Made by a program: the position numbers and the translations under genes | The notes under the pieces: model-generated | The model's input: only the letters and a program-made list of their open reading frames with translations | What the model was told of the DNA's origin: nothing | Database searches by the model: none | Assembly: GCA_025699075.1 (NCBI GenBank) | Contig: JAILWG010000001.1 | Location: 1 to 64,000 of the forward strand | Direction of reading: 5' to 3' | Source of the DNA: Candidatus Nitrosopumilus sp. | GTDB lineage: Archaea > Thermoproteota > Nitrososphaeria > Nitrososphaerales > Nitrosopumilaceae | DNA length: 64,000 nucleotides | Shown: piece by piece, positions 60,438 to 62,558 of the stretch | How the letters are laid out: each line of letters begins with the position of its first letter | Numbering within the stretch: position 1 is the stretch's first letter

Positions 60438-60521
60438 ACTTGTTTCAAAACATTCGGTGATTTATTACTAGCGTTTTTTAGATCCAAAAACAGTTTAAAC
60501 TTTAATACAATGAATCAATTT

Positions 60522-60536
60522 TGATATTAAATATCA
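60522..60536. repeat. 15-bp AT palindrome in a gene-free stretch
   Basis: TGATATT-A-AATATCA is a perfect palindrome with 7-bp arms, located between two divergent genes (60438-60649). It is AT-rich and could be a regulator site. No other feature is seen in this 212-bp gap except TATA-like tracts. Confidence 0.4.
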
Positions 60537-60649
60537 TATATTATTTAAAAGCAATATGAAAAAGTCAACATTGTTGTTAGAATATCTACTTTGATCTGTC
60601 CAAAATCTATTTTTGAAAGTATTTATTCAATAATTCATAACATGTGAAT

Positions 60650-60946
60650 ATGTGTATTTTTGGTTTAGATACCATATGGTGTGTTGGTGCTGCAATTGTT
60701 GTAGGAGTAGGAATTGTTGCAGGGGCAATAATTTACAAAGCAAAAAAAATTGCAGAGCCACATCCTGCAACCACTGAATCATTCAGAGCTGCTGGCGTGG
60801 CTATTTGCACTCGATTGTATACTTCTGGTGCACAATGGGAAACCTGTGTAGGTCAAGTTAATGCTGAGGCTGCTCGAGCATTGGCCAATCAAGAACAATT
60901 TGATACTTCTAATGTGTCAAGTATTCCAACTTCCGAATGGCCTTAG
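60650..60946 (+). CDS. Small single-pass membrane protein
   Basis: A protein of 98 residues from the ATG at 60650 (in-frame GTG at 60644). The N-terminus MCIFGLDTIWCVGAAIVVGV leads into a transmembrane helix (about 11-30). The soluble part (about 35-98) has Cys in VAICTRLYT and WETCVGQVN and is Ala-rich. The ATG is preferred because a TATA-like atttattc (around 60621-60628) lies about 26 bp upstream. It precedes the micro-ORF array. No family is recognised. Confidence 0.65.
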   Translation: MCIFGLDTIWCVGAAIVVGVGIVAGAIIYKAKKIAEPHPATTESFRAAGVAICTRLYTSGAQWETCVGQVNAEAARALANQEQFDTSNVSSIPTSEWP

Positions 60947-61028
60947 TCTTTTAATTTCTCTTTTTTATTTTCTAAACTCATTTGAGAACAGACAATACGC
61001 TTAAGTTTAGAATTCTTTAAGAAAGTTC

Positions 61029-61136
61029 ATGAGTTTTAGAACAAACGTATTTTCAAAAAAAGAACTTGTGATAATAGTAGGAATTTCAGTCATTGCTTCA
61101 TCAATTTTGTATATTTCTTATGTTACTGGAAGGTAG
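61029..61136 (+). CDS. 35-residue membrane micro-protein (array member 1)
   Basis: An ATG ORF starting MSFRTNVFSKKELVIIVGIS. A basic N-terminus is followed by one hydrophobic helix (about 13-32). A TATA-like CTTAAGTT centred at about 61003 lies 26 bp upstream. It looks related to the ORF at 62356-62448 (both K-x-E-x-x-x-I-I ... LY-x-[SY]). The function is unknown. Confidence 0.55.
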   Translation: MSFRTNVFSKKELVIIVGISVIASSILYISYVTGR

Positions 61137-61177
61137 GGTTTCAATACGCTTAATTTGCTAATTATTCTAGAAAATTC

Positions 61178-61315
61178 ATGAATTCTGATGATGAAGCACA
61201 AATGCATATGGTTAAAGAATATGTCCATAATGCCAAGAAATTCTATGATCATTTAGAAAATTGTGAGTCATGTAGAAAAAAGATGGCTGAAATTATGAAA
61301 CACGTTTACAGTTAG
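61178..61315 (+). CDS. 45-residue CxxC micro-protein (array member 2)
   Basis: A soluble, helical, charged ORF starting MNSDDEAQMHMVKEYVHNAK. It has one C-x2-C (ENCESCRKKM) and several His (MHMV, EYVHNA, YDHLE, KHVYS), a plausible metal site. A TATA-like CGCTTAAT lies 26 bp upstream. Its TAG stop is the first part of the next repeat module. Confidence 0.6.
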   Translation: MNSDDEAQMHMVKEYVHNAKKFYDHLENCESCRKKMAEIMKHVYS

Positions 61316-61376
61316 ATTCTAAACTCTTTAGAGAATAAGCAATACGCTTAAGTTCATTATTCTTTTGAAATAATAT

Positions 61377-61493
61377 ATGAATGGAACAAGTTGCGATAAA
61401 TGTTTCACAGGTTACAGACCTAGTGATGTTGATGTGTGTGAAAAATGCAGTAACGAGTTTTGTGGTAGTTGTATGAAAAGTCATGGGTGTTAA
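61377..61493 (+). CDS. 38-residue Cys-rich micro-protein (array member 3)
   Basis: It starts MNGTSCDKCFTGYRPSDVDV and has seven Cys, arranged C-x2-C-x12-C-x2-C followed by FCGSC and HGC, resembling half of a treble-clef or RING-like zinc site. A TATA-like block lies about 27 bp upstream. It is a likely zinc-binding micro-protein of unknown role. Confidence 0.65.
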   Translation: MNGTSCDKCFTGYRPSDVDVCEKCSNEFCGSCMKSHGC

Positions 61494-61611
61494 AGTGACA
61501 ATCAATGCAAGAAGCAATTCAATCCTTAAATTCTAAACTCTTTAGAGAATAGAGAATGTGTCTAAGTTCACATATTTCAGATAGAATTATGAAACGAAAA
61601 GATTTTCAAAC

Positions 61612-61728
61612 TTAGTTTTTCTTAGATTCTTGTTTATGCTCTTTGCGTCTTTTCTGTTTAGCGCCACCGCCAATATTGTGGCCGCTTGGTAATTTTTTAG
61701 TCATATCTGTTATTCCCCTATCGTTCAT
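61612..61728 (-). CDS. 38-residue basic micro-protein (opposite strand within array)
   Basis: It starts MNDRGITDMTKKLPSGHNIG. A glycine-rich turn (GHNIGGGAKQKRRK) is followed by a strongly basic tail, which suggests nucleic-acid or ribosome binding. MTKKLPSGHN is an alternative start. It is antisense to the tiny ORF that follows the module at 61528. Codon content supports translation on this strand. Confidence 0.5.
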   Translation of the reverse strand: MNDRGITDMTKKLPSGHNIGGGAKQKRRKEHKQESKKN

Positions 61729-61796
61729 GTATACCTTTGTAGTTTCTTTTTCTTGATACTTGGATAGCCCAGGTTAGATTCTAAACCCTTTGAATA

Positions 61797-61904
61797 TCAA
61801 CTAGGAGAGACAGATGACACCAGTTTAACTGCATAACATTCAACATCTATTAATACAGATTCGAGATGTGCCCATATTTCTTCGCCTCTCTTAGCATTTG
61901 TCAT
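61797..61904 (-). CDS. 35-residue micro-ORF (opposite strand within array, tentative)
   Basis: It starts MTNAKRGEEIWAHLESVLID and looks like a short amphipathic helix-strand protein with one Cys (DVECYAVKLV). An imperfect palindrome at 61909-61936 lies just upstream of its ATG. Its stop codon falls within the half module at 61776-61800. It is too short for certainty. Confidence 0.45.
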   Translation of the reverse strand: MTNAKRGEEIWAHLESVLIDVECYAVKLVSSVSPS

Positions 61905-61908
61905 TTTA

Positions 61909-61936
61909 TGTCAAATTAAGAGATCTCTAATTGACA
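61909..61936. promoter_or_regulatory. Imperfect palindrome upstream of the minus-strand micro-ORF
   Basis: TGTCAAATTAAGAGA and TCTCTAATTGACA are near-complementary arms, with two extra A in the left arm, meeting at a central GAGATCTC. The element ends 4 bp upstream of the ATG at 61904 (minus strand). It is an operator candidate. Confidence 0.45.
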
Positions 61937-62039
61937 TATATTCTTAATTGCATAATTTAATCATACTATCCAGTCTAGATTCTGAAATCTTTTGATAACA
62001 GGCAATATTGTTAAAAACACTCTAGGTTAGATTGTAATC

Positions 62040-62198
62040 ATGGCTACATTAACCAACAAACAACACGAAAAACAACAAGATTCTAGAATCAAGAAACTAG
62101 AGAACTATCTAAATCAAGACAAAAAAGAAATGACTAAACTCAAGAACAAAATAAAAACTCTAGAGGCAAAGGTCAAGAAACTGGAGAAAAAGAAATGA
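62040..62198 (+). CDS. 52-residue coiled-coil micro-protein (array member)
   Basis: It starts MATLTNKQHEKQQDSRIKKL and is almost entirely a Lys/Glu heptad-type helix (IKKLENYL, TKLKNKIKTLEAKVKKLEKK), predicted to form a coiled coil. A TATA-like TTAAAAA (62011-62017) lies 26 bp upstream of the ATG. Its TGA stop overlaps the ATG of the next micro-ORF (ATGA), so the two are translationally coupled. Confidence 0.65.
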   Translation: MATLTNKQHEKQQDSRIKKLENYLNQDKKEMTKLKNKIKTLEAKVKKLEKKK

Positions 62199-62296
62199 AT
62201 CTAAAATTACTTCGCAACTTGGGTATTGCTTCGGCAGTTGTAATTACAGTAATATTTGCAATTGGATTTCTTGATGATATTAGTGGTGTTCCTTAG
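62195..62296 (+). CDS. 33-residue membrane micro-protein coupled to the coiled-coil ORF
   Basis: It starts MNLKLLRNLGIASAVVITVI: a basic N-terminus, one hydrophobic helix (about 9-26), and an acidic end (FLDDISGVP), giving a C-out layout by the positive-inside rule. The start overlaps the previous stop (ATGA). Its TAG stop opens the next repeat module. It may anchor its coiled-coil neighbour to the membrane (inference). Confidence 0.6.
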   Translation: MNLKLLRNLGIASAVVITVIFAIGFLDDISGVP

Positions 62297-62355
62297 ATTC
62301 TAAATTCTTTTAAGAATAAGTAATATTATTATGTTCACTGTAATTCTGAACTGTA

Positions 62356-62448
62356 TTGAAACTACCTAAAAATGAGATAAATGCTATAATTTTTAGTATG
62401 TCGTTATTGGCAGGGATTACCCTATACACATATTCGACTCTTTTGTAA
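62356..62448 (+). CDS. 30-residue membrane micro-protein (last array member, TTG start)
   Basis: It starts MKLPKNEINAIIFSMSLLAG and has one hydrophobic helix with little else. The TTG lies 26 bp downstream of the TATA-like TAATATTATT of the module at 62294-62338. It resembles array member 1 in helix pattern and length. Downstream, 62449-62558 holds only the TATA-like region of the phosphatase gene (tttaatataatt around 62519). Confidence 0.45.
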   Translation: MKLPKNEINAIIFSMSLLAGITLYTYSTLL

Positions 62449-62558
62449 CATCAAAAATCATTCCGTTCCGGATTGGTTAATCTGATCGGTATTTAATCAC
62501 GAAAAGTTTACTCCCAACTTTAATATAATTAGCGATTTTTTTCCAAATCAGAAATCTA

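Follow-up and report, generated by a model that had tools for sequence, protein, structure and literature searches.

The region between positions 60961 and 62448 of the window, by which we mean the whole 64,000-nucleotide stretch of DNA that was analysed, is very likely an array of small-protein cassettes, each typically composed of one promoter and one small gene, and the cassettes may be co-regulated. Seven copies of a module, some complete and some partial, lie in it between small ORFs (Table 1). All seven copies reported in the first-pass annotation could be located (m1–m7), m2 and m5 being halves only, and their repetition exceeds chance, since a 26-base pattern of the left half matched three times in the window with up to three mismatches and in none of 100 shuffled sequences. 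The same annotation had placed start codons of five ORFs 26–27 nt past the midpoint of the TATA-like block (CTTAAG), a spacing that holds for m1, m2, m3, m6 and m7. As m4–m7 are decayed or partial, about five modules look active, and the 8-codon ORF that follows m4 looks like a degraded cassette. The array does not consist of promoter units only, because K38m, the 35-aa minus-strand ORF, TM33 and the 100-aa ORF have no core. K38m and the 35-aa ORF are two conserved minus-strand micro-ORFs that were absent from the initial list; for the 100-aa ORF, no homologue was found in the loci examined.

Table 1. Features of the array and its flanks in window coordinates; distances run from the first base of the core to the start codon.
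Feature	Position	Strand	Remark
AAACTTTAATA element, left copy	60497..60507	.	flanks whole insert; empty-site comparison, 30 genomes
100-aa ORF	60644..60946	+	first gene inside insert; no core motif
m1, whole	60968–61007		
m1 left half, TTCTAAACTC box	60968..60992	+	long variant
m1 promoter core, CAATACGCTTAAGTT	60993..61007	+	start codon 36 nt on
TM35, 35-aa single-helix membrane protein	61029..61136	+	same-length homologues in many genomes
m2 promoter core	61142..61156	+	1 mismatch; no left half; start codon 36 nt on
HCx45, 45-aa protein with H-x3-C-x2-C	61178..61315	+	
m3, whole	61313–61354		
m3 left half	61313..61339	+	includes TAG stop of HCx45
m3 promoter core	61340..61354	+	start codon 37 nt on
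CxxC38, 38-aa Cys-rich protein	61377..61493	+	
m4, left half and decayed core, GAATGTGTCTAAGTT	61527..61568	+	
8-codon ORF 3' of m4	61589..61615	+	sequence
K38m, conserved 38-aa basic protein (MTKKLPxGHNIGGG)	61612..61728	-	no core motif; homologues in at least 8 genomes
m5, left half alone	61774..61803	+	no promoter core
35-aa ORF	61797..61904	-	homologue in G019, 80% identical
m6, whole	61975–62017		
m6 left half	61975..62002	+	diverged
m6 core, CAATATTGTTAAAAA	62003..62017	+	diverged; start codon 37 nt on
cc52, 52-aa coiled-coil protein	62040..62198	+	
TM33, 33-aa membrane protein	62195..62296	+	overlaps cc52 stop; no module or promoter of its own
m7, whole	62293–62335		
m7 left half	62293..62320	+	includes TAG stop of TM33
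m7 core	62321..62335	+	diverged; TTG start 35 nt on
TM30, 30-aa membrane protein	62356..62448	+	TTG start
AACTTTAATA element, right copy	62515..62525	.	promoter of HAD gene

The right half of the module had been described as TATA-like. Its promoter-like character at leaderless spacing is borne out, but the half is more specific than a generic TATA box, namely a 15-bp core, CAATAnGCTTAAGTT, located 35–37 nt 5' of the start codon, of which the best copies in the array read CAATACGCTTAAGTT. With up to one mismatch the 15-mer occurs at 15 sites in this genome, and at 13 of them a start codon 35–37 nt downstream opens an ORF with 20 or more codons. We then applied a position weight matrix, trained exclusively on other genomes, to 320 kb of this genome at a threshold of 17.5 bits, and it returned 12 sites, compared with none above 18 bits and one above 16 bits in the reversed sequence. 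Eleven of the 12 precede an ORF, mostly a very small one, by 35–37 nt and the twelfth does so by 40 nt. These strong sites fall into four islands on contig C1, at 61 kb, 208 kb, 279–281 kb and 291–292 kb; when weaker sites are included, 11 neighbour pairs lie less than 2 kb apart, whereas simulation gave 1.4 such pairs on average and 6 at most, a comparison based on a site list put together after the clusters had been seen. CTTAAG was found at −38 to −18 in none of the 222 ORFs with 150 or more codons, upstream of which TTTAAA, TTTAAT and TTTATA are enriched in the same interval. The spacer between core and start codon is conserved as well, with A at −20, −18 and −4 and C or T at −1, and this pattern survives sampling of one sequence per family. 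Cumulatively, the core behaves as a putative leaderless-type archaeal promoter element serving many genes, with its TATA-like centre about 26–27 nt from the start. It resembles known archaeal BRE/TATA leaderless promoters in the distance of the TATA-like hexamer from the start, in the BRE position just upstream and in the pyrimidine at −1, and differs from them in having a long fixed core that is not of the TTTAAA type and is confined to mostly small genes. In some core-bearing families the spacer also contains a palindrome, TTCTnnnAGAA, 5–15 nt 5' of the start (e.g. in the window at 61008–61028), which may be an operator.

As judged from pattern searches, the module system extends far past the window and represents a genus-wide promoter class with at least 52 families. 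Of the 95 genomes of the genus, 77 carry the core followed by ATG at exactly 36 nt, with up to one mismatch, and the reversed pattern gave one match in total. Displacing the ATG by 5 nt lowered the genus-wide number of matches, summed by hand, from about 310 to about 60, nearly all of which spend one mismatch, mostly in the ATG itself. Three further genera of the family (g19, g20 and g28) also carry the core; it is absent from three others (g18, g24 and g25), and in other families of the order matches were at chance level. The named relatives comprise Nitrosopumilus, Nitrosarchaeum and unclassified Nitrosopumilaceae. With up to two mismatches, 126 core sites, which were selected by the 35–37 nt rule, precede 52 protein families without detectable mutual similarity, with a median length of 67 aa and a CxxC motif in 21. 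Because that rule preselected the sites, the evidence for the spacing rests on the 15-mer, matrix and displaced-ATG scans. One of the larger core-bearing families (L074; MINPEILRLLE, ~140 aa) has a weak PADLOC match to Csx21, which is type III-D associated (E 0.0006). We considered whether the module might be nothing but a chance similarity of AT-rich intergenic DNA, given the high AT content of the genome and the frequency of TATA-like strings; keeping in mind that shuffle and reversed-pattern controls were at or near zero and that 52 families share the same core, we regard the probability of this as negligible.

Comparison with homologues indicates that the micro-ORFs are real genes, evidently under purifying selection across the genus. 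TM35 homologues from many genomes keep to 35 aa, with pN/pS of 0.20–0.64, and the corresponding values are 0.11–0.52 for K38m, 0.24 for TM33, 0.46 for TM30 and 0.42 for the 35-aa minus-strand ORF. The TM33 homologue in G019 is 72% identical and lies beside different genes, and the TM30 homologue in G017, located in a different island, likewise starts with TTG and has the core 36 nt upstream. Comparative support for HCx45, CxxC38 and cc52 as proteins is little or absent. Pfam and PADLOC searches with the micro-ORF products gave no confident family, only weak resemblances to zinc fingers, among them that of HCx45 to zf-HC2 with a score below the cut-off.

Archaeal viruses often encode tiny proteins of the zinc-ribbon, membrane and coiled-coil types. 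Since the array encodes proteins of this virus-typical kind and the islands vary by strain, the region might be the remnant of a provirus or plasmid with early genes under a common viral promoter. We find this improbable, however, because purifying selection acts on the genes across the genus, the promoter consensus had no relevant phage match and TM35 none, and the 40 pattern matches in viral contigs were nearly all single sites, several of them within one unrelated sequence that recurs, and formed no clusters before ORFs. A viral origin was thus rejected on the ground that the viral matches resembled chance or one unrelated recurrent sequence. The latter, found in the viral contigs L162, L163, L164, L169, L176, L196 and L199, has the 15-mer without mismatch, followed by an ATG at 37 nt, and looks like an unrelated conserved viral sequence.

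The left half of the module, TTAGATTCTAAACTCTTTnnAGAATA, is palindrome-like in letters, and it had been taken for a terminator hairpin. This reading found no support, as the stability of the RNA fold did not exceed that of dinucleotide shuffles (z −0.63 to +0.33) and no T-run follows the palindrome; an Rfam search gave no match above the cut-off. An exact TTCTAAA box was present in 24 of the 126 upstream regions against 1.2 expected, and in relatives its position peaks at 10 and 23 nt 5' of the core. The fixed distance to the core favours an upstream promoter element over a terminator, and a putative element of this kind, existing in a short and a long variant, fits the left half better.

The array occupies the intergenic site between proS–zf95 and HAD (window 60438–62558), which we compared among genomes (loci L210–L223 and L257–L276). 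Among 30 genomes with both flanks, the zf95–HAD distance is 103–174 bp, typically about 105 bp, in 21, outgroup genera among them, and 0.5–2.9 kb, with largely different contents, in the remaining 9. By parsimony this makes the short state ancestral, outgroup states having been used since a tree of proS and HAD from 10 genomes had support too weak to count insertions. The comparison shows recurrent insertion at one site, the zf95–HAD hotspot. Every insertion splits one shared divergent promoter region between the two genes; all nine filled sites retain ACTTTAATA on the HAD side, and on the zf95 side six have a clear copy, one has a partial copy and two have none. A target duplication could account for the flanking AACTTTAATA copies, as could the need of both neighbours to retain their promoters through any insertion. 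In three genomes (G012, G008 and G005) the hotspot also contains genes without the core. A 55-aa ORF in the G012 hotspot was considered as a recombinase N-terminus and dropped, as it had no Pfam match.

Gain and loss of units, which the first-pass annotation had inferred, could be followed directly by comparing genomes, and contents differed between strains, for which identical ORFs had been named as the refuting observation. In a comparison of 143 sites with up to three mismatches, 53 promoter pairs had homologous upstream DNA, and in 21 of these the downstream gene was non-homologous. Whole units were also present or absent: the 164-bp TM35 unit occurs in G009 and is absent from G010, with CAATACGCT direct repeats at its bounds; a 34-aa unit of about 129 bp is present in L112 and absent from G017; and a 77-aa unit of about 520 bp, found in L097 and L088, is absent from this genome. 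TM35 is followed here by HCx45 and in G008 by a 39-aa coiled-coil gene, and at L144 and L149 the upstream DNA is shared through the promoter up to the start codon, with complete divergence beyond. Moreover, the G024 hotspot contains TM35 together with two genes that in this genome are located 218 kb away, in the 279 kb island, and TM30 and TM33 sit in another type of island in G017 and G019. These comparisons show single promoter-plus-gene units that have been gained, lost and exchanged between genomes and islands.

Such units recall integron cassettes, which likewise are small, unrelated and single-gene, have a repeated element between them and come and go unit by unit; together with the possible target duplication at the hotspot, this would agree with cassettes driven by a recombinase, with the palindrome of the left half as recombination site. 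We judge this very improbable. Integron cassettes usually lack promoters, whereas each unit here has its own. The left half is often missing (as in m2) or variable in length and gives no attC-like folding signal, its folding being at shuffle level, and no integrase is nearby: tyrosine recombinase (PF00589) is absent from the window, from the surroundings of the islands and from contig C1. The whole assembly holds one confident and one weak match to this family, on contigs C5 and C2.

The repeated promoter itself may be where recombination takes place. The direct repeats of the TM35 indel and the break of homology between L144 and L149 at the start codon suggest that promoter repeats can act as junctions, although they do not prove promoter-driven exchange, as the intergenic DNA is almost entirely promoter. 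We tentatively propose, as a possibility that we would not call probable, that the promoter serves as a joint, 15–50 bp of near-identity allowing single units to recombine in and out without a dedicated recombinase, so that arrivals would be instantly co-regulated. We lean slightly towards a plainer explanation, a regulon in which one factor reads a shared promoter and generic recombination or horizontal transfer moves the genes, the repeats being uninvolved. Within a gene family the spacers resemble one another, which would follow from joint inheritance of promoter and gene, and core-less micro-genes share the same islands, the hotspots of three genomes included; the repeats bounding the TM35 indel and the L144/L149 junction, on the other hand, are less readily explained by a plain regulon.

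For the cassette array itself we envisage the following. A typical unit has three parts: an optional TTCTAAA box, the 15-bp core, which we interpret as a BRE joined to a TATA element, and a spacer of 21 nt that leads up to the start codon. Judging from this spacing, RNA polymerase would begin transcription on the start codon or right beside it, yielding a leaderless mRNA for one tiny protein. Junctions of gain, loss and exchange land in the repeated promoter, as the intergenic space is hardly more than that, and units travel among a few islands. That the core is distinct and missing from large genes suggests a co-regulated set, which a particular TFB/TBP combination or a dedicated regulator might read. 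Regulons defined by TFB/TBP paralogues occur in halophilic archaea and have been proposed for ammonia-oxidizing archaea, for which TFB expansions are also published (PMC7554672). Our case is alike in that this genome has nine TFB genes and that one promoter type is common to many genes, and unlike in that no paralogue could be assigned to the promoter: in a tree of 69 TFBs from nine genomes and this one, with long branches, none cleanly tracked it. The group of this genome's TFB at C4:63.6k comprises promoter-positive genomes only, but is missing among the sampled TFBs of one such genome. Another TFB gene (L253; G000 C1:64472-64987) lies about 2 kb from the array, just past the end of the window; its branch is long and its nearest neighbour in the tree is a TFB of G047. 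In G092 a TFB-like match with an internal TAG (C66:81317-81574) is possibly a decaying paralogue.

We found no description of the core promoter or of such arrays in the open full-text literature on Nitrosopumilus promoters, leaderless transcripts, small proteins and islands. The islands share with archaeal 'dark matter' islands (PMC4158269) the strain-variable clustering of small, often membrane, proteins of unknown function, and differ from them in their common promoter and in the movement of single promoter-plus-gene units. The integrated mobile elements of Thaumarchaeota, in the portion of PMC6563490 considered here, are likewise inserted at fixed chromosomal sites in the same lineage and fall into five classes, among them proviruses, casposons and insertion-sequence types; promoter-bounded arrays of small genes are not among the elements described in that portion.

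Nitrosopumilus and its relatives rank with the most abundant marine cells, and small genes of unknown function account for much of their variable genome. One readable promoter allows such genes to be found by sequence and their starts, TTG included, to be predicted. It would unite more than 50 families in one testable regulon, show how genes are acquired and exchanged, and offer a concrete handle on the role of the many TFB paralogues in this lineage. If the promoter did act as a joint, it would represent a recombinase-free counterpart of integron cassettes, and the pool it serves in Nitrosopumilus would exceed 50 families of small proteins.
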